DNA from: a virus | IMG/VR virus record: IMGVR_UViG_3300042301_003774 | Coordinates: 1 to 64,000 of that record | DNA: 64,000 nt | Direction: 5' to 3' (one strand) | Shown: piece by piece, positions 42,808 through 58,873 of the stretch | Position numbering within the stretch: the stretch's first letter is position 1 | Layout: each line of letters starts with the position of its first letter | The notes under the pieces: model-generated | Told to the model about the DNA's origin: nothing | Database searches by the model: none | The model's input: only the letters and a program-made list of their open reading frames with translations | Program-made: the position numbers and the translations under genes

Positions 42808-44222
42808 AAAATCATTCTTGATCCAATCAAGACATTACTTAATAATGGTGACCCATCTGCAGTATTACCACTTAGTTTATAATTGATACTAAGCCCAAAT
42901 CTTTTACTTAGTTTGTAATCAAATGATGAACCAATAAGATATCCCATATTTTTGTTTATTGTGGACGTGCCCGCCACACTATTCCAAGATATTGGAGCAA
43001 ACATTGTGAATATCTGTGGCGATATGGTTAATTTTTTACTGTATTGATATGGTTTGGTCCAAAACGCCACAACTGATGTTGAAGTGTTGTAGTCATACCC
43101 ACTTTTTGAATTTTTTAATAATAGATTTATTAATCCCAAATTATATCCAAACACACCTTTCTTCTGTGTTGGTTTTATCCAGGTATAACCTAATAAATTC
43201 ATGTAATTACCATTCAAATAAGCAAAAGATGATGAATATGAATGTATTGCGTTTAATTTACCATTCGAAAAATCCATTTTAGTGAATCCACCAGTAACAA
43301 TAAAAGTTTTCAGATCGCTCATTATAACAGTATTTGCGGAATAACTCTTATCACCCATTAATGATGATTTGGATACACCAATAGTTGCGGATTGTAACCA
43401 CCTACCCTCTGGTGTCTCAATTGTTGACAAATCAGACGATAACAACATAGGATTCGACACCGCAGCTTTTTCTTTTTTCTTTTCTTCCTTTTTTTCTTCC
43501 TTTTTTTCTTCTTTAGATTCTTCCTTTTTTTCCTCTGTTTTTGATTCTTCCTTTTTTTCTTCGCTTTTACTTTCGGTTTTTGATTCTTCTTTTGTCTCTG
43601 ATTTACTTTCTGTTTTACTTTCTGTTTTACTTTCTGTTTTACTTTCTGTTTTAGCTTCAGTTTTTGTGCTTGACGATGATGAACTACTAGAACCGCCAGA
43701 ACCACTTGAACTCGATGACGCCGGCGGTGGTGAGCTAGCGGCGCCACTTGCTGATGAACCCGCTGCACTACCTGCCGATGAACTAGCCGCGCTACTTGCG
43801 GATGAACTAGCAGCACTACTTGCTGACGAGCTTGCCGCTGTTGCAGCAGAACTTGAGGCAGCACTAGATGCAGCAGAACTAGCCGCTTGAGCTGCGGCAT
43901 TACTAGCTGCTTGTGCGGCCGCGTTTGTTACCGCTTGCTGTACTATTGGATTATTGATTACAGGACACGTAATAGCCTCGTAGGTAGCTTTAGTTGTAAG
44001 TAACCAACTCTGAACTACACCGGTTTGAACTTCGATAGGGCTAAACGTTCTAACTTGATTATAGAAAGATACGGTAGCATTCCCATTAATCATTGTGGTT
44101 GTCGCAACTTTACGTTCTCCGGTACACCTATCTACAAATGTTTGGGTATAAGTTTGGCCTATCGCTTTATTAACGAATAACGACAGAAGAATTATTGATA
44201 AACTTATTAACCATTTTTTCAT
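42804..44222 (-). CDS. Exported protein with low-complexity linkers and barrel-like C-terminus
   Basis: A 472-residue protein. A Sec signal (WLISLSIILLSLFVNKAIGQ) is followed by a small domain, then an Ala/Ser-rich stretch (about 105-180), a Ser/Gly run, and a long Lys/Glu run (KTESKTESKTESKTE, about 185-250). The last 200 residues have alternating beta strands ending in LSNVLIGSRMIL, like an outer-membrane barrel. ISPQIFTM and SFDYKLSKRFGLS resemble phrases in the barrel-like protein at 48257, so the two are probably paralogues. It is the distal gene of the exported-protein island. Confidence 0.6.
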   Translation of the reverse strand: MKKWLISLSIILLSLFVNKAIGQTYTQTFVDRCTGERKVATTTMINGNATVSFYNQVRTFSPIEVQTGVVQSWLLTTKATYEAITCPVINNPIVQQAVTNAAAQAASNAAAQAASSAASSAASSSAATAASSSASSAASSSASSAASSSAGSAAGSSASGAASSPPPASSSSSGSGGSSSSSSSSTKTEAKTESKTESKTESKTESKSETKEESKTESKSEEKKEESKTEEKKEESKEEKKEEKKEEKKKEKAAVSNPMLLSSDLSTIETPEGRWLQSATIGVSKSSLMGDKSYSANTVIMSDLKTFIVTGGFTKMDFSNGKLNAIHSYSSSFAYLNGNYMNLLGYTWIKPTQKKGVFGYNLGLINLLLKNSKSGYDYNTSTSVVAFWTKPYQYSKKLTISPQIFTMFAPISWNSVAGTSTINKNMGYLIGSSFDYKLSKRFGLSINYKLSGNTADGSPLLSNVLIGSRMIL

Positions 44223-53646: not shown

Positions 53647-53735
53647 GTCAAGGCAATTTGAAGGCCAATATTTACTAAAATATAAGGTAAATCATTAATT
53701 TATTAAAAAAAAATAATTTTATTTTTTAAGTTTTC

Positions 53736-53766
53736 TTGATTATATACATATTTATTGGTATCTTTG
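53736..53766 (+). promoter_or_regulatory. Host-type promoter of the tRNA array
   Basis: TTG at 53736-53738, a 20-base spacer, and TATCTTTG at 53759-53766 give a full match to the Bacteroidota pattern. It precedes the leader ORF and the first tRNA. Confidence 0.75.
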
Positions 53767-53794
53767 TAAAAGAAAAAAGATAAAACTAAATTCA

Positions 53795-53893
53795 ATGAGA
53801 CAATTTACACATACAATGTCGTTTACAATCTGTTCAAAATGGGCGGATGAGCGCGCTATGCATAATAGTCTCGGAGATGTTGTATTAAGTTAA
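53795..53893 (+). CDS. Putative leader peptide of the tRNA array
   Basis: A 32-residue ORF (starts MRQFTHTMSFTICSKWADER) begins about 29 bases after the host-type promoter and ends 26 bases before a terminator. The bases AGTCTCGG at 53867-53874, inside the ORF, can pair with eight bases of the terminator's first arm (CTGAGACT at 53924-53931). Near the start, GAGAC at 53797-53801 could in turn pair with GTCTC at 53868-53872. This is the arrangement of a translation-dependent attenuator. Whether the peptide is made is not known. Confidence 0.45.
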   Translation: MRQFTHTMSFTICSKWADERAMHNSLGDVVLS

Positions 53894-53918
53894 AAGTAGA
53901 TTTTAACTAAAAATATTA

Positions 53919-53952
53919 AAACCCTGAGACTTAAAAATCTCGGGGTTTTTTG
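53919..53952 (+). terminator. Leader terminator before the first tRNA
   Basis: Stem AACCCTGAGA / TCTCGGGGTT (one wobble) with an eight-base loop and a run of six T. It lies just before tRNA-Ala. Confidence 0.85.
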
Positions 53953-53957
53953 TTTAT

Positions 53958-54027
53958 GGGCCGGATGTCAATGGCAGACCACCTGATTTGCAATCAGAGT
54001 GAATGGGTTCGATTCCCAACGTGTCCA
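53958..54027 (+). tRNA. tRNA-Ala(UGC)
   Basis: Anticodon loop TTTGCAA gives UGC. G3 and U70, the main Ala identity pair, are present, as is A73. The acceptor stem has mismatches at 5:68 and 6:67 and there is an extra base between D and anticodon stems, so it is degenerate. Confidence 0.65.
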
Positions 54028-54033
54028 CAGAAT

Positions 54034-54107
54034 TGGAATATAGCTCAGTTGGTTAGAGCGTCATCCTGATACGGTGAATGTCGATGGTTCGAGTCCATCT
54101 ATTCCAA
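54034..54107 (+). tRNA. tRNA-Ile(GAU)
   Basis: Full cloverleaf; loop CTGATAC gives GAU. The acceptor begins with a U1-A72 pair. Confidence 0.9.
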
Positions 54108-54112
54108 CATAA

Positions 54113-54185
54113 GGAATTTTTGTATAGCTGGTGCGTACGTCGGACTGAAAATCCGAAGGAACAAGTTCGATTCTTGTAGATTCCA
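54113..54185 (+). tRNA. tRNA-Phe(GAA)
   Basis: Loop CTGAAAA gives GAA; T-arm ACAAG/CTTGT; D-stem is only three base pairs. Confidence 0.88.
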
Positions 54186-54191
54186 CATAAT

Positions 54192-54265
54192 GATCTCGTA
54201 GCTCAGCTGGATAGAGCACCTCACTTTTAATGAGGGAGTCAATGGTTCGAGTCCATTCGGGATCA
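54192..54265 (+). tRNA. tRNA-Lys(UUU)
   Basis: Perfect seven-pair acceptor; loop CTTTTAA gives UUU. Confidence 0.92.
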
Positions 54266-54271
54266 CAACAC

Positions 54272-54342
54272 ACGGGTATGGTGCAACGGTAGCATACGGG
54301 TCTCCAAAACCTTTGATGGAAGTTCGAATCTTTCTATCCGTG
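54272..54342 (+). tRNA. tRNA-Trp(CCA)
   Basis: Loop CTCCAAA gives CCA; G73 fits Trp; acceptor pairs fully (ACGGGTA/TATCCGT). Confidence 0.88.
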
Positions 54343-54363
54343 CAAAATTTTAAAAATAAAAAA

Positions 54364-54789
54364 ATGGAAAATAATGAATTAGGGTATAAGTTAAAAATAG
54401 ATGCTCAACTTATACAAGTCCGAGAGGAAAGAAAAAAAAGGATAAAAGAATATTGGGAAAATTTACCCAAAATCAATACGCCTGTGGATGTACCTGAATT
54501 ACCTCAAGTAGATATTCAAGAATGGAAAGAGTATTATGTCCCAAAACTAATTGAAGCTGGTGCTATTCCTAAAAAAGATTTGGTTGTTGGTCAAATTTAT
54601 ATTGGTGAACATAGGAGAGCTAGGGTTGCTAAATGGAATGGAGAACAATTTGTTTATAACAGGGAAAAATTTGGAAATGTCTTTGAAGATAAATGCAACC
54701 ATTTTGAAGATGATGATGGGTTCGCATTATTTGTTCCAATAAGAATTGGCACCGAAGAAGAGTTTAATAAAAATGGTCTCATAGTTTAA
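54364..54789 (+). CDS. Unassigned protein between tRNAs, ending inside tRNA-Arg
   Basis: A 141-residue protein from the ATG at 54364 (an earlier in-frame reading would run back into tRNA-Trp). It is charged and helical in the first 60 residues, then has a beta-like domain (LVVGQIYIGEHRRARVAKWNGEQFV). The last codons and the TAA stop lie in the first 15 bases of tRNA-Arg(ACG), so stop and tRNA D-arm share bases. No family recognised. Confidence 0.6.
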   Translation: MENNELGYKLKIDAQLIQVREERKKRIKEYWENLPKINTPVDVPELPQVDIQEWKEYYVPKLIEAGAIPKKDLVVGQIYIGEHRRARVAKWNGEQFVYNREKFGNVFEDKCNHFEDDDGFALFVPIRIGTEEEFNKNGLIV

Positions 54790-54845
54790 TGGAAAAACGT
54801 CTCGCTACGGACGAGATGATTGAGGTTCGAATCCTTGTGAGATCT
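54775..54845 (+). tRNA. tRNA-Arg(ACG)
   Basis: Loop CTACGGA gives ACG, as in bacterial tRNA-Arg; perfect acceptor with one wobble. Its first 15 bases overlap the preceding ORF. Confidence 0.88.
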
Positions 54846-54852
54846 CTTATTA

Positions 54853-54922
54853 GGTCAGTTTGGTCGTGGAGGCCAGTTAGTCTGCAAAACTAACGGAGTT
54901 GGTTCGATTCCAACATTGACCT
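54853..54922 (+). tRNA. tRNA-Cys(GCA)
   Basis: Loop CTGCAAA gives GCA; U73 fits Cys. D-stem is short. Confidence 0.82.
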
Positions 54923-54924
54923 CT

Positions 54925-54997
54925 GTGTTTATGGTGTTAATGGTTAGCATGACAGATTGTGGTTCTGTTGGTATGGGTTCAAATCCCATTAAACACC
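54925..54997 (+). tRNA. tRNA-His(GUG)
   Basis: Loop TTGTGGT gives GUG; C73 fits His; perfect seven-pair acceptor. The usual G-1 is not encoded: the base before position 1 is T. Confidence 0.85.
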
Positions 54998-55005
54998 CCA
55001 TATAT

Positions 55006-55080
55006 TGCGGGATGCGTAGAAAATGGTTATCTCATCGGTCTCATAAGCCGAGGTTCTGGGTTCGAGTCCCAGTCCCGCAA
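55006..55080 (+). tRNA. tRNA with CAU anticodon (Met or Ile2), atypical D-arm
   Basis: Loop CTCATAA gives CAU; perfect acceptor TGCGGGA/TCCCGCA and T-arm. The D-arm is atypical, with few D-stem pairs. A lysidine-modified C34 would make it Ile2; sequence alone does not decide. Confidence 0.7.
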
Positions 55081-55143
55081 CAAAAAATATGTCTGAATAA
55101 TTTTTTTATTCGATTTATTTATTTATTTTTGTTGAAGATATAT

Positions 55144-55215
55144 CGCGAGATAGAGCAGCGGTAGCTCGGAAGGCTCATAACCTTTAGGTCGGGGGTTCGA
55201 TTCCCTCTCTCGCAA
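55144..55215 (+). tRNA. Initiator tRNA-fMet(CAU)
   Basis: Loop CTCATAA. Position 1 is C and position 72 is A, so the first pair is the C1-A72 mismatch of bacterial initiators, and A11-U24 also fits. The anticodon stem is not GGG/CCC but GAAGG/CCTTT, a departure from the usual initiator stem. Confidence 0.8.
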
Positions 55216-55217
55216 CA

Positions 55218-55400
55218 ATAGGTGAAGACTGTGGTGGAAGCCCACGGTATATGAGTCCCTAAAAGCTGTCTTGATTCGCGGTATCAAAGCGGTGCGGGTA
55301 GAGTAACATATAAGTCGGGAGTAATTAACCAATTGACGAAAATGTAACCGCCGGTTAGAGATAATCGGTTATGATGTTCAAATGCGAACGAAAAACCTAT
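55218..55400 (+). ncRNA. Structured inter-tRNA RNA 1
   Basis: About 183 bases between tRNA-fMet and tRNA-Asp with no ORF. The ends form a perfect 6-bp stem ATAGGT/ACCTAT three and five bases from the flanking tRNAs. Inside are pairings AAGAC/GTCTT, TTGAT/ATCAA, GCGGT/ACCGC and GTTC/GAAC. It shares GGAGTAATTAACC (55318) and GGGTAGAG (55296) with RNA 3. Not a tRNA by any criterion I can apply. Confidence 0.55.
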
Positions 55401-55404
55401 AAAC

Positions 55405-55476
55405 GGTCCTGTAGTTAATCGGCTATAACGCCGCCCTGTCACGGCGGTATGCCGGGTTCGATTCCCGGTGGGACCG
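55405..55476 (+). tRNA. tRNA-Asp(GUC)
   Basis: Loop CTGTCAC gives GUC; G73 fits Asp; strong stems throughout. Confidence 0.92.
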
Positions 55477-55479
55477 CAA

Positions 55480-55672
55480 TGAGTAAGAGATACTCGGTAG
55501 TCTTTCATCCAAGACTCATTTAACAATGGATGGGGATAAAAAATTTCCACCTACGGAATTTCGATTTGGAATAATGGTAGCAAGGTTCAGCACCACCAAC
55601 GTATTGAACTGACTTTTTAATCGGGGATGCCCAGCAGGTTTTTCAAACAGTAAAAACCGATATAACTACTCA
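55480..55672 (+). ncRNA. Structured inter-tRNA RNA 2
   Basis: About 193 bases between tRNA-Asp and tRNA-Ser(UGA) with no ORF. TGAGTA at the start pairs with TACTCA at 55667-55672. Inside, GGTTTTT/AAAAACC forms a 7-bp hairpin. Another 25 bases separate it from the next tRNA. Structure is less compelling than for the other three. Confidence 0.4.
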
Positions 55673-55697
55673 CAGACAATCTCGCTGTGGGACAATT

Positions 55698-55783
55698 GGA
55701 AGGATGGCAGAGTTGGTCTATCGCGCTGGTCTTGAAAACCAGAGCTCTGAAAGGGGCCGTGGGTTCGAATCCTACTCCTTCCG
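55698..55783 (+). tRNA. tRNA-Ser(UGA)
   Basis: Loop CTTGAAA gives UGA, with the long variable arm of Ser tRNAs; perfect acceptor; G73. Confidence 0.92.
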
Positions 55784-55784
55784 C

Positions 55785-55923
55785 TAATCACAAATAAAAA
55801 TGTGAGTTATAATAAAATAGCCAATTATAAGCCAACATAAAGTTGTTGGGTACAGACGGAGTAATTAACCGGAGTATAACGCAACAATTGTGATATTATA
55901 ACAAATACCCATTTGAGTGATTA
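55785..55923 (+). ncRNA. Structured inter-tRNA RNA 3
   Basis: About 139 bases between tRNA-Ser and tRNA-Glu with no ORF. The ends pair over seven bases TAATCAC/GTGATTA. Inside, TTATAAT/ATTATAA and CCAACA/TGTTGG form hairpins. It shares GGAGTAATTAACC (55858) and GGGTACAG (55848) with RNA 1. Confidence 0.6.
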
Positions 55924-55926
55924 TTT

Positions 55927-55998
55927 GGCCCGTTCGACTATCGGTTAGGTCGTCAGGTTTTCATCCTGGAAAGAGGGGTTCGATTCCCCTACGGGCTA
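55927..55998 (+). tRNA. tRNA-Glu(UUC)
   Basis: Loop TTTTCAT gives UUC; stems good apart from a G1-U72 pair. Confidence 0.88.
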
Positions 55999-56013
55999 CT
56001 AAACATTATTAGT

Positions 56014-56220
56014 ATGAAGAAGATTGTTTTATTATTAATTGTTGCGATCTCAATGTGTGGTTGTATTGTGATGCCAAGTAGGTTATCAATTCATGAAAAA
56101 AGATTATGGATACACCAAAATCAACCAAGACAATATTACTATAAAACACATCCAAGATTTCAAGAAAGAATAAAAAGAGGTAAAATTTACACACCTTATT
56201 TTAGACCTGGTAGATATTAA
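56014..56220 (+). CDS. Small lipoprotein between tRNA genes
   Basis: A 68-residue protein with a lipoprotein signal MKKIVLLLIVAISMCGC (lipobox SMCGC) and a basic, Tyr/Pro-rich mature part (HPRFQERIKRGKIYTPYFR). It starts 15 bases after tRNA-Glu and lies in the tRNA operon, so it may be expressed with it. Envelope location is likely; function unknown. Confidence 0.7.
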   Translation: MKKIVLLLIVAISMCGCIVMPSRLSIHEKRLWIHQNQPRQYYYKTHPRFQERIKRGKIYTPYFRPGRY

Positions 56221-56281
56221 AATAAAAAAATATTTACAATTAAAATAAACTTTTGTAAATTTACGTATACTTATTACAACG

Positions 56282-56392
56282 ATGACGAATATAAATAACA
56301 TATTAACGCTTAGTACTAGACCCCTTAACAATGGTAATGGGTATGGTGTGCAACCGTTATATTGCTTATGTTCGGATCTTATAGAGATGTAA
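56282..56392 (+). CDS. Putative second leader peptide
   Basis: A 36-residue ORF (starts MTNINNILTLSTRPLNNGNG) that ends 22 bases before a strong terminator. TGTTCGG at 56369-56375, inside the ORF, can pair with CCGAACA of the terminator's first arm. The design matches the leader at 53795. No promoter is obvious, so it may be reached by read-through from the upstream tRNAs. Coding status is uncertain. Confidence 0.4.
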   Translation: MTNINNILTLSTRPLNNGNGYGVQPLYCLCSDLIEM

Positions 56393-56414
56393 AAAATTTT
56401 TACGATTATAAATG

Positions 56415-56452
56415 AAGCCCGAACAAATTAAAAAAATGTTCGGGCTTTTTGT
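56415..56452 (+). terminator. Terminator before tRNA-Leu(UAA)
   Basis: Perfect stem AAGCCCGAACA / TGTTCGGGCTT followed by T run, lying inside the tRNA operon, about 60 bases before the next tRNA. Confidence 0.85.
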
Positions 56453-56512
56453 TTTCTAATATTTTATCTCTATATTTGAAACATAGTTCTTTGACATGAT
56501 GAAAAGCCAAAT

Positions 56513-56596
56513 GCCTGGGTGATGGAATGGTAGACATGACAGACTTAAAATCTGTTGGGCAAATCGCTCGTGCGGGTTCGACTCCCGCCCTAGGTA
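56513..56596 (+). tRNA. tRNA-Leu(UAA)
   Basis: Loop CTTAAAA gives UAA, with a class II variable arm; A73 fits Leu. Confidence 0.92.
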
Positions 56597-56600
56597 CAAT

Positions 56601-56674
56601 GGTTCCATAGCTCAATTGGATAGAGCAACACACTTCTAATGTGTAGGTTTCAGGTTCGACTCCTGATGGAATCA
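56601..56674 (+). tRNA. tRNA-Arg(UCU)
   Basis: Loop CTTCTAA gives UCU; complete cloverleaf. Confidence 0.92.
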
Positions 56675-56675
56675 C

Positions 56676-56815
56676 AAAGATAATGGTCTGATGTTATTAT
56701 GATTGTCGACAAATCATGGTAGCTCTTAAACAGACAGCACCCTCTGCCGATGCATCGTAAAACTATTACTAAGCAGTTAAGATTGGAACGAGACGGGTAT
56801 TCCAACATTATCTTT
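56676..56815 (+). ncRNA. Structured inter-tRNA RNA 4
   Basis: About 140 bases between tRNA-Arg(UCU) and tRNA-Pro with no ORF. Its ends pair perfectly over ten bases AAAGATAATG/CATTATCTTT, two and six bases from the flanking tRNAs. Inside are GTCTG/CAGAC, ATGATT/AATCAT, TTGGAA/TTCCAA and a self-complementary CGATGCATCG. Best-supported member of the group. Confidence 0.65.
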
Positions 56816-56820
56816 ATTTT

Positions 56821-56894
56821 CGGGATATAGCGTAGTCCGGTATCGCGCTTGGTTTGGGACCAAGAGGTCGTAGGTTCGAATCCTGCTATCCCGA
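56821..56894 (+). tRNA. tRNA-Pro(UGG)
   Basis: Loop TTTGGGA gives UGG; C1-G72 first pair as in bacterial Pro tRNAs. Confidence 0.92.
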
Positions 56895-56901
56895 CATTAT
56901 T

Positions 56902-56975
56902 GCCTTCTTAGCTCAGTTGGTTAGAGCAACGCACTGTTAATGCGTGGGTTCCTGGTTCGAGTCCAGGAGAGGGCG
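56902..56975 (+). tRNA. tRNA-Asn(GUU)
   Basis: Loop CTGTTAA gives GUU; G73 fits Asn. Confidence 0.92.
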
Positions 56976-56982
56976 CAACAAT

Positions 56983-57063
56983 GCCCTGGTGGTGGAATTG
57001 GTAGACACACTAGATTTAGGATCTAGCGCGAAAGTATTGAGGGTTCGAGTCCCTCCTAGGGTA
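56983..57063 (+). tRNA. tRNA-Leu(UAG)
   Basis: Loop TTTAGGA gives UAG; class II variable arm; A73. Confidence 0.92.
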
Positions 57064-57072
57064 CAATAAATT

Positions 57073-57153
57073 GGGAGTATCGCATAGTGGCAATTGCAGA
57101 AGACTGTAAATCTTCCCTCATCGAGTTCAGTGGTTCGAGTCCACTTACTCCCA
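57073..57153 (+). tRNA. tRNA-Tyr(GUA)
   Basis: Loop CTGTAAA gives GUA; long variable arm as in bacterial Tyr tRNAs; perfect acceptor. Confidence 0.93.
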
Positions 57154-57159
57154 CAATTT

Positions 57160-57236
57160 GGACTTGTAGCTCAGTTGGTTAGAGCACTTCACTCATAATG
57201 AATAGGTCCCTGGTTCGAGCCCAGGCTGGTCCACCA
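57160..57236 (+). tRNA. tRNA with CAU anticodon (elongator Met or Ile2), CCA encoded
   Basis: Loop CTCATAA gives CAU with the regular D-arm GCTC/GAGC. It is the only tRNA here with a complete CCA end in the DNA. Met or lysidine-Ile2 identity cannot be told from sequence. Confidence 0.8.
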
Positions 57237-57239
57237 AAT

Positions 57240-57312
57240 AGAAGATTAGCTCAGTTGGGAGAGCGCTTGTCTTACATGCAAGATGTCACTGGTTCGATTC
57301 CAGTATCTTCTA
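57240..57312 (+). tRNA. tRNA-Val(UAC)
   Basis: Loop CTTACAT gives UAC; perfect acceptor AGAAGAT/ATCTTCT. Confidence 0.92.
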
Positions 57313-57317
57313 CAATT

Positions 57318-57390
57318 GCCTCCATAGCTCAGTTGGTAGAGCAGCTGATTTGTAATCAGCAGGTCGTTGGTTCGAGCCCGACTGGAGGCT
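57318..57390 (+). tRNA. tRNA-Thr(UGU)
   Basis: Loop TTTGTAA gives UGU; strong anticodon stem; U73. Confidence 0.9.
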
Positions 57391-57400
57391 CGATGGGTCT

Positions 57401-57438
57401 GAGGGAGTCCCGAAAAGGTATAAATAACCTGTCCCTCT
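57401..57438 (+). ncRNA. Small inter-tRNA hairpin
   Basis: GAGGGA / TCCCTC (6 bp) encloses AGGT / ACCT, filling the gap between tRNA-Thr and tRNA-Gly(GCC). It could be a processing element. Confidence 0.4.
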
Positions 57439-57442
57439 CCAA

Positions 57443-57515
57443 GCGAAAGTAGCTCAGTCGGTAGAGCATTACCTTGCCAAGGTAAGGGTCGCGAGTTCGA
57501 ATCTCGTCTTTCGCT
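57443..57515 (+). tRNA. tRNA-Gly(GCC)
   Basis: Loop TTGCCAA gives GCC; U73 fits Gly. Confidence 0.92.
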
Positions 57516-57551
57516 CTTAGAGGTACTTCCAAGTTTTTTTAATATTTGGAA

Positions 57552-57560
57552 GTATTTATA
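57552..57560 (+). promoter_or_regulatory. Late-type promoter motif GTATTTATA
   Basis: GTATTTATA three bases before the ATG at 57564. Confidence 0.5.
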
Positions 57561-57563
57561 GAT

Positions 57564-57995
57564 ATGAAAACAAAAATATGCCCTAAATGTGAAATTGAAT
57601 TACCGTTAAATGACGAACATTTCGCATCAAGATATGATAGAAAAGAAAAAATGTTTCAACATATCTGTAGAAAATGTCAGAGTGAATATAGAAAAACTCA
57701 TTATGAAAAAAATAAACAAAAATATATTGATAAAGCTAAAGTCTTTACTAAATCAATGGTTGAATGGTTTATTGAATATAAAAAAACATTAAAATGTGTC
57801 GAATGTGGTGAAGATAGATATTGGGTTTTAGATTTTCACCATAGAGACCCTAAAGAAAAAGATATCGAGGTTTCTACTTTAATTAGAAGGGGTAGTAAAA
57901 GTAAAATATTAAATGAAATTGAAAAATGTGACGTTCTATGTTCTAATTGTCATAGGGATTTACATTTTAAAGAAAATAATGCGGATTTCGCCTAG
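57564..57995 (+). CDS. HNH endonuclease-like protein, ending inside tRNA-Gly
   Basis: A 143-residue protein. Two zinc-ribbon-like Cys pairs (CPKC ... CRKC and CVEC) frame the segment WVLDFHHRDPKEKDIEV, where the HH pair and following Asp match an HNH core; LCSNCHRDLHF supplies the last Cys and His of the motif. Freestanding HNH proteins of this kind act as homing endonucleases in T4-like phages. The last codons and the TAG stop lie in the first 15 bases of tRNA-Gly(UCC). Late-type motif before the start. Confidence 0.75.
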   Translation: MKTKICPKCEIELPLNDEHFASRYDRKEKMFQHICRKCQSEYRKTHYEKNKQKYIDKAKVFTKSMVEWFIEYKKTLKCVECGEDRYWVLDFHHRDPKEKDIEVSTLIRRGSKSKILNEIEKCDVLCSNCHRDLHFKENNADFA

Positions 57996-58054
57996 TTGGT
58001 ATGGCATCACACTTCCAATGTGAAATAGGATCGGTTCGAGCCCGATAATCCGCT
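57981..58054 (+). tRNA. tRNA-Gly(UCC)
   Basis: Loop CTTCCAA gives UCC; U73; first 15 bases overlap the HNH gene. Confidence 0.9.
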
Positions 58055-58059
58055 CATTA

Positions 58060-58130
58060 TGTCCTTTGGTGTAACGGTAGCACAACTGTTTTTGGTGCAG
58101 TTTGTTTAGGTTCGAATCCTAAAGGGACAA
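58060..58130 (+). tRNA. tRNA-Gln(UUG)
   Basis: Loop TTTTGGT gives UUG; U1-A72 first pair as in bacterial Gln tRNAs. Confidence 0.9.
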
Positions 58131-58134
58131 CAAT

Positions 58135-58224
58135 AGAGAGTTACCCAAGTTGGTGAAGGGGTCTGTTTGCTAAACAGATAGGTCGGGTTAAACCGGCGCA
58201 AGGGTTCGAGCCCCTTACTCTCTA
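58135..58224 (+). tRNA. tRNA-Ser(GCU)
   Basis: Loop TTGCTAA gives GCU; long variable arm; perfect acceptor. Confidence 0.9.
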
Positions 58225-58229
58225 CATAC

Positions 58230-58377
58230 TGTAGTGTGACGAAATTGGCAAACGTGCCCTCCTGTCTCGGGGGCGGTGACAAAGAAATAGATTAGTAATA
58301 TGGGGTAGACCACCAGCCGGCCGGCGTAATGTTACTAATTGAATCTCACCTTGGTGGTTCGAATCCATCCGCTACAG
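58230..58377 (+). tRNA. Unusual tRNA-like gene with giant variable arm, anticodon GUC
   Basis: A 148-base tRNA-like gene. Acceptor TGTAGTG/CGCTACA (seven pairs, one wobble), T-arm and D-arm are regular and resemble a Leu/class II body (GACGAAATTGGCAAACG). The anticodon stem encloses CTGTCTC, giving GUC with a pyrimidine at 37, and G73 follows. Between anticodon and T stems lie 79 bases (58274-58352) in place of the usual 4-20; they form GGTGA/TCACC and a long ATTAGTAATAT/ATGTTACTAAT stem. The aminoacid identity is unclear. It is not an intron of a recognisable type. Confidence 0.65.
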
Positions 58378-58411
58378 CATTTATAAAATAAACTAAGTAA
58401 AATGAAATGAA

Positions 58412-58873
58412 ATGAAACAATTTAAAACACTTCACGGAATTGTGATTCCGAACTTGATTGAATATGTTAGGGAATACATATCAACAAGGGAGAACGTAGA
58501 AATTCTTATTGGTTCTGACTCACAATGTTATAGCCATAAAAAAACCGTGTATGGTGTTGTAATTGCTTTATACACTCCTGGAAAGGGGGCACACGTTTTA
58601 TGTAATCGTGAAACATTACCGATGGAATATAATACACCGTCTAGATTATTAAATGAAGTTTGGAGATCGATTGAAATTGCTGAATGGATGAAAGAAAACG
58701 GTTTACCAAAAGCAACATATATTGATATTGATTTAAATCCAGATCCAAAGTACAAATCAAACGCTGTATTAAGACAAGCTGTTGGTTTAGTTGAAGGTAT
58801 GGGGTATAAAGTTAGATATAAACATTTCGGTGCTTTAACAACATACGCAGCTAATCAACTAGTTCGAATTTAA
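58412..58873 (+). CDS. RNase H-fold protein, YkuK/DUF458-like
   Basis: A 153-residue protein. EILIGSDSQCYSHKKTVYGVVIALY (about 30-54) has the first strands and acidic residue of an RNase H-like fold of the YkuK type; YIDIDLNPDPKYKSN supplies further acidic residues, and the C-terminal AANQLVRI helix closes it. Such proteins are of unknown function in bacteria. It starts just after the tRNA array. A nucleic-acid role is plausible. Confidence 0.7.
   Translation: MKQFKTLHGIVIPNLIEYVREYISTRENVEILIGSDSQCYSHKKTVYGVVIALYTPGKGAHVLCNRETLPMEYNTPSRLLNEVWRSIEIAEWMKENGLPKATYIDIDLNPDPKYKSNAVLRQAVGLVEGMGYKVRYKHFGALTTYAANQLVRI

Follow-up and report, generated by a model that had tools for sequence, protein, structure and literature searches.

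The stretch of DNA analysed here, which we call the window, comprises positions 1 to 64,000 of a 71,517-base IMG/VR virus record (IMGVR_UViG_3300042301_003774) and carries a plus-strand tRNA array in which ARAGORN finds 24 tRNA genes between 54034 and 58225, to which Rfam adds two. Our subject is four segments of the same strand that lie between these tRNA genes: segment 1 (55218-55400) in the tRNA-Met/tRNA-Asp interval, segment 2 (55480-55692) in the tRNA-Asp/tRNA-Ser interval, segment 3 (55785-55923) in the tRNA-Ser/tRNA-Glu interval, and segment 4 (56676-56815) in the tRNA-Arg/tRNA-Pro interval. An earlier note had described them as a family of structured RNAs fitted between tRNA genes, and the four segments, their adjoining tRNAs and the perfect end-to-end complementarities of 6, 6, 7 and 10 base pairs (ATAGGT/ACCTAT, TGAGTA/TACTCA, TAATCAC/GTGATTA and AAAGATAATG/CATTATCTTT for segments 1 to 4) are all present in the sequence. 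Some details had to be adjusted. The segments were said to begin 2-4 bases after a tRNA; the fit is close, but by the tRNA ends that ARAGORN assigns the distances are 1, 2, 0 and 0 bases. Three of the four were said to end within six bases of the next tRNA; we moved the end of segment 2 from 55672 to about 55692, the end of its last hairpin, so that all four segments of the window end six bases or less before the next tRNA. Finally, the segments are free of open reading frames (ORFs) of at least 60 amino acids on the plus strand, as described, but not on the minus strand, where a 69-amino-acid ORF overlaps segment 1 and an 88-amino-acid ORF overlaps segments 1 and 2.

Comparison with relatives establishes the segments as four separate conserved non-coding RNAs, each with a predicted covarying fold of its own, located in tRNA arrays and on the tRNA strand. 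The idea of structured RNAs fitted between tRNAs is therefore borne out, but not that of one family: the segments represent four families (numbered as the segments) that are unlike in sequence and structure, and a single-family reading was ruled out, the GGAGUAAUUAACC hairpin of segments 1 and 3 being their sole common piece. Folding energies, compared with those of shuffled sequences, gave z-scores of -1.74, -0.78, -3.09 and -2.58 for segments 1 to 4, so that segments 3 and 4 stand out and segments 1 and 2 do not. Because the latter two failed by energy, conservation had to decide, and folding energy was dropped as a sole test that would miss them. We drew helices from the alignments and counted them against shuffled and slid controls. 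Covariation exceeded both kinds of control in all four families, with the proviso that the structures were derived from the same sequences, which favours them over their slid versions, and that the rows are related, so the shuffles overstate significance.

Segments 1, 3 and 4 are predicted to be closed by their terminal stems (55218-55223/55395-55400, 55785-55791/55917-55923 and 56676-56685/56806-56815, respectively), in which 3 of 6, 5 of 7 and 8 of 10 pairs show two-sided changes in relatives. Over the whole fold, family 4 (31 rows) has two-sided changes at 21 of 29 pairs, with 86.2% of cells paired and a covariation of 0.421 versus 0.176 when shuffled. The corresponding figures are 16 of 32 pairs and 92.1% for family 3 (17 rows), and 17 of 34 pairs and 93.7% for family 1 (17 rows). 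A long-range helix of family 3, CAAUU/AAUUG, covaries at two of its five pairs; when further pair types are counted, this family does not beat its shuffles (202 of 500).

Segment 2 is closed differently. The terminal stem that had been proposed for it was not upheld, since none of the six pairs covaries and copy L193 compensates a local hairpin instead. The alignment demonstrates that the ends are joined by a predicted contact between the first and last hairpin loops: GAGAU (55487-55491) would pair with AUCUC (55679-55683), with 99.0% of cells paired, two-sided changes at three of five pairs, and GAGAC:GUCUC and GAAGU:ACUUC as variants. Two-sided changes occur at 40 of the 51 pairs of family 2 (42 rows), and 82.6% of cells are paired. 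At least one covarying pseudoknot is predicted in this segment, formed by the loop of hairpin 2 (CAUCC, 55506-55510) and a downstream strand (GGAUG, 55528-55532); this helix 4 covaries at five of five pairs. A second drawn pseudoknot has partial support on this alignment (56.9% of cells paired, two of five pairs). For family 2, the structure that RNAalifold derived from the raw MAFFT alignment was poor, and helices drawn by eye were used in its place.

A search in relatives recovered all four segments in the tRNA arrays of many uncultivated phages. An exact 13-mer, GGAGTAATTAACC, is common to segments 1 and 3, and a pattern derived from it picked out 107 stretches of IMG/VR; among its 80 distinct sites, 45 have a same-strand tRNA within 400 bases, 1 has an opposite-strand tRNA only and 34 have none. 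In four scans with patterns specific to a segment, a same-strand tRNA is near 11 of 17, 76 of 90, 18 of 104 and 16 of 20 of the distinct sites listed, and an opposite-strand tRNA alone is near none of them; most matches of the segment 1 pattern, a short one, look like chance. In the fetched loci (L numbers), blastn found homologues of all four segments, and profile searches of 525 sequences yielded at least 21, 119, 20 and 78 distinct copies of families 1 to 4, lower bounds that cover the fetched loci only and include some near-duplicates. A same-strand tRNA lies within 300 bases of 20, 106, 15 and 68 of these copies (209 of 238 in total); none stands beside an opposite-strand tRNA only, and 1, 13, 5 and 10 have no tRNA near.

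The carriers are diverse. A relative of the large terminase of the window is found in 19 of 30 member-carrying records, with identities from 87% down to about 27% (100% in the near-identical record L002/L113), a range which indicates that the RNAs cross distant phage lineages, with records of up to 310 kb. Covariance models of family 4 (R1) and family 2 (R2), each of which includes the window copy, find one strong copy each in the window (R1 on segment 4 with 151 bits, R2 on segment 2 with 167 bits); an extra R2 match at 43067 (16 bits, E 0.003) was taken as noise. There is no more than one copy per record in 12 other records (R1 in 2, R2 in 4), and segment 1 has at most one copy in the whole window record. 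The two models find nothing in Flavobacterium phage immuto, Cellulophaga phage phi17:2, LR756508 or LR745206. When segments 1, 3 and 4 and the family 2 copy of L286 were compared by blastn with 50,697 isolate phage records, no match was convincing, including one of 33 bases with an E of 0.6, and exact patterns for families 2 and 4 had 0 matches in 84,980 bacterial and archaeal genomes. The window order of segment 1, tRNA-Asp, segment 2, tRNA-Ser, segment 3 and tRNA-Glu is also that of L052; in L194, L196 and others the RNAs adjoin other tRNAs than in the window.

The fit was judged on those copies that have a same-strand tRNA within 300 bases on the side concerned. It is typically tight in families 2 and 4, and only partly so in families 1 and 3, and the positions of families 2 and 4 agree best with release by tRNA cuts. 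Of 81 family 2 copies, 53 begin 2 bases past a tRNA, and 68 of 84 have their end 4-7 bases ahead of one. In family 4, the end is 1-6 bases ahead of a tRNA in 46 of 62 copies. The profile of this family begins some 23 bases into the RNA; for 32 of 56 copies the profile edge stands 19-25 bases past a tRNA, as it does in the window. Of the family 1 copies, 12 of 18 start 2 bases past a tRNA, and of the family 3 copies, 6 of 10 have their end 5 bases ahead of one.

We next consider the self-complementary loops of segments 1, 3 and 4. Loop A of segment 1 (UCGCGG, 55276-55281) is self-complementary with one G-U pair, and relatives have UCGCGA, UCUAGA or a CCGG core. Its core is CGCG in 13, CTAG in 6 and CCGG in 1 of 20 copies, with at least four changes on a tree built without the loop. 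In the adjacent columns 64/65 we observe GC 11 times, UA 5 times and CG once, and the two-sided changed cells outnumber those of all 500 shuffles. Adjacent bases are unable to pair with each other inside one molecule, and changes at adjacent bases that keep self-complementarity therefore point to contacts between molecules. Loop 2 of segment 4 is a 10-nucleotide (nt) palindrome in the window (CGAUGCAUCG, 56748-56757) and has 8-10 bases across the family; a perfect 8-nt palindrome is present in 65 of 75 readable copies and one with a single G-U pair in 7 more, and three copies outside the text search show CGAGGCCTCG. Its alignment also has more two-sided changed cells than any shuffle. On a tree of the 68 perfect-palindrome copies, the central tetramer (GGCC, UGCA, AGCU, GAUC, CGCG, GCGC) changed at least 11 times, or 19 times on a looser count; this tree is palindromic by choice and counts changes of letters, not breaks of the palindrome. 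Loop 1 of segment 4 (56705-56710) reads GUCGAC in 71 of 78 copies, GUGCAC in L193 and is replaced by a different hairpin in six. In segment 3, the hairpin GG-AGUAAUUAA-CC (55858-55870) presents UAAUUA in 18 of 19 readable copies, and L432 has UGAUCA with a changed closing pair. Self-complementarity kept through adjacent compensating changes, as expected of a kissing-loop homodimer, is seen for loop A of segment 1 and more weakly for segment 4. In a 2025 Nature paper on GOLLD, ROOL and OLE, palindrome switches at adjacent bases were taken to support intermolecular kissing loops in GOLLD and OLE (PMC12286853). Taken together, the comparative data support the view that segments 1 and 4 form dimers or larger homo-oligomers through predicted kissing of loop A and loop 2.

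Several observations weigh against such self-association or against release of the RNAs by tRNA cuts. Some of the loop A changes in segment 1 fall on weak branches of the tree, and two-sided changed pairs in its palindrome columns are not above the shuffles (463 of 500). Seven of the 78 segment 4 copies lack GUCGAC in loop 1, one of them having GUGCAC. For loop 2, the changed pairs are likewise not above the shuffles (185 of 500), the central dinucleotide changed only twice on a tree made up of palindromic copies only, and an odd-length variant in L456, L461 and L488 (3 of 78) could close as an intramolecular hairpin. The switch in the segment 3 loop is a single event (39 of 500 shuffles), and no palindromic loop was seen in segment 2. 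The UAAUUA loop would pair by A-U alone and occurs in a group I intron, and may be a general docking module. With regard to release, only 6 of 17 family 1 copies have a tRNA within 13 bases of their end, and only 4 of 14 family 3 copies have one within 13 bases of their start, so that not every copy is consistent with release by flanking cuts.

A general rule of palindromic loops was tested on 1062 distinct spacers against five shuffles, with mixed results. Loops of 9 nt with the hexamer at offset 2 number 49, versus 15-23 in the shuffles (AGUAAUUAA itself contributing 8), and at offset 1 there are 21 versus 11-23. The counts are 57 versus 11-25 (37 of them tRNA T-loops and 9 GUCGACA) and 34 versus 15-21 for 7-nt loops, 32 versus 12-20 and 16 versus 13-23 for 8-nt loops, and 29 versus 14-24 for 6-nt loops. 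Because the real set counts related spacers more than once, which the shuffles do not, we claim no general palindromic-loop rule. A further conserved hairpin of tRNA arrays, whose loop is palindromic (TGTTAGTGGG[TTTGATCAC]CCCATTCACG, with close variants), lies beside tRNAs at about 5459 on the minus strand of L256, and hairpins of this type are also present in L245, L445, L448, L453, L459, L463, L466, L476, L479, L483 and L494.

The hairpin GG-AGUAAUUAA-CC also forms loop B of segment 1 (55318-55330), where the UAAUUA hexamer is invariant in 17 of 17 rows, and it recurs in several other RNA types of tRNA arrays. It is a recurrent RNA module, for which self-kissing is only one reading. Its stem is extended by a mean of 3.6 pairs at 33 sites near tRNAs outside segment 3, by 2.2 at 32 sites far from tRNAs, and by 0.1 at 15 segment 3 sites; our own estimate for chance is about 0.6. 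One of the far sites falls inside a group I intron (67.3 bits) at 3626-3986 of L101, a locus in which no tRNA was detected, and a weaker, sub-threshold case lies at 367-567 of L094. A reading of AGUAAUUAA as a GNRA tetraloop was rejected, because the variants AAUAAUUAA and ACUAAUUAA and the L432 loop break GNRA and keep the palindromic hexamer. By eye, RNAs of L004, L006, L019, L030 and L092 consist of the AGUAAUUAA hairpin, then a T-arm-like hairpin, then a tRNA-like domain with an insert, and they begin right past a tRNA where one was detected.

The window segments have no Rfam match at the gathering score or at E up to 5, all listed matches being on tRNAs or outside the segments. A gathering-score test for GOLLD (RF02032) gave no match in the window, and ROOL, which presumably has a model in Rfam, is absent among the matches listed for the window. 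There is no match to the group I intron model (RF00028) in 53700-58500 at E up to 5 and none of the freshwater-1 model (RF02979) to the four segments, and as to a tRNA cloverleaf with T-arm, ARAGORN and RF00005 match only the neighbours of the segments. Among the best 150 of 259 Rfam matches in fifteen relative loci, one places GOLLD at 311-775 of L029, a locus with the AGUAAUUAA hairpin in its tRNA array. Another is to freshwater-1 RNA, a 62-nt family said to come from a 2017 survey, which in L254 immediately precedes a tRNA and segment 4. The kind of RNA is thus already known, with GOLLD and freshwater-1 in two like arrays, and what is new are the four families and the fact that they are small and lie side by side. 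Our search of the literature on structured or small RNAs in phage tRNA arrays found none describing these RNAs among the papers listed, subscription papers lying mostly outside the search.

Other known RNAs offer partial parallels. The dimerisation initiation site of human immunodeficiency virus type 1 has a loop of 9 nt in which two purines on the 5' side and an A on the 3' side flank a self-complementary hexamer, a layout shared by AG-UAAUUA-A; the likeness is one of layout without kinship, and the UAAUUA hexamer is all A-U. The pRNA of phi29 is a small phage RNA that oligomerises by loop-loop pairing, and differs from the segments, which match no Rfam model, in its neighbourhood and, as far as known, its role. 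The closest likeness in setting is to GOLLD and ROOL, large RNAs that can form protein-free cages. These two are often found near phage tRNA islands, have no known function and have symmetric kissing loops partly supported by palindromic covariation (PMC12286853). The segments are likewise phage-encoded, structured and close to phage tRNA genes. GOLLD and ROOL, however, are much longer and form single large cages, whereas the segments measure 139-213 nt and are of four unrelated kinds side by side.

On balance, we consider it probable, with moderate confidence, that the segments are RNAs of a large phage that are co-transcribed with tRNAs, freed by tRNA processing and able to self-associate. 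The host is probably a member of the Bacteroidota, because the array is preceded by TATCTTTG (53759-53766, plus strand), which we take to be a Bacteroidetes-type -7 box, and because the best-ranked isolate terminases include that of Flavobacterium phage immuto (29%). This likely array promoter would drive co-transcription of the segments and tRNAs. Judging from their position, the segments would then be freed by the cuts that make the tRNAs, by RNase P at the next tRNA and by 3'-end processing of the previous one, and the freed RNAs might accumulate during infection in compact, self-associating form. Conceivably, they could serve as abundant decoys or scaffolds for a host factor that is related to translation or acts on tRNAs. 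It is also conceivable, although unlikely, that the RNAs are a toolkit, made by tRNA processing in large Bacteroidota phages, for mixed protein-free assemblies, in which segments 1 and 3 would join via UAAUUA and segments 1 and 4 would each self-join by means of other loops, giving a multi-RNA particle.

Other explanations are less probable. The recurrence of the AGUAAUUAA hairpin in other RNAs, including a group I intron, is what a protein site or docking module would produce, and the segments could accordingly act on a protein of the host or phage as monomeric decoys or guides, with the palindromic loops as sites for a dimeric protein. Such a site normally keeps its sequence, whereas loop A of segment 1 and loop 2 of segment 4 keep self-complementarity and change their letters, and we regard this possibility as unlikely. 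The tight tRNA fit of many copies and their closed ends would also suit cis-acting spacers, that is, folded linkers that separate tRNAs, aid RNase P and 3' processing, and have no function once released. We consider this unlikely, in that the conserved unpaired sequence, pseudoknots and palindromes exceed the needs of a spacer, one RNA adjoins different tRNAs in different phages, and elements of this kind are missing from most tRNA junctions of the window. Descent from group I introns or exotic tRNAs settled in the array might be suggested by the hairpin that segments 1 and 3 have in common with the L101 group I intron, and by the tRNA-like domains seen by eye in some other array RNAs with this hairpin. 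The segments nevertheless lack any intron or tRNA match in Rfam at E up to 5 and have full covarying folds of their own, which makes such an origin very improbable.

These four conserved RNAs, two of them apparently suited to self-association, point to RNA machinery of phage tRNA islands that has so far gone unstudied. In many metagenomic phage contigs, small unrelated RNAs with defined folds and candidate self-contact loops occupy the niche of GOLLD and ROOL. Their small size eases in vitro assembly, cryo-electron microscopy and mutational tests, and the presence of several kinds side by side makes the use of such RNAs by phages testable by deletion and expression.

The arrays contain further elements. 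Two short ORFs at 53795-53893 (MRQFTHTMSFTICSKWADERAMHNSLGDVVLS) and 56282-56392 (MTNINNILTLSTRPLNNGNGYGVQPLYCLCSDLIEM) precede tRNA genes, and each is followed, by eye, by a hairpin and T run resembling an intrinsic terminator. The first, MRQFTHTMSFTICSKWADERAMHNSLGDVVLS, uses 18 amino acids, and together with MTNINNILTLSTRPLNNGNGYGVQPLYCLCSDLIEM all 20; similar short ORFs occur in relatives L099, L052, L015 and L045. They look like the leader peptides of attenuation systems and could sense a shortage of any aminoacyl-tRNA, permitting transcription of the tRNA array. At 58226-58380 lies a tRNA-like gene with a long insertion and a stem GATTAGTAA/TTACTAATT, which ARAGORN missed and which is 93% identical in L052 and 84% in L003. 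Finally, L026, L029, L057, L072, L081 and L089 contain, by eye, inter-tRNA spacers whose interiors vary and whose closing sequences are variants of CATATAAAAACACA/TGTGTTTCTATATG.

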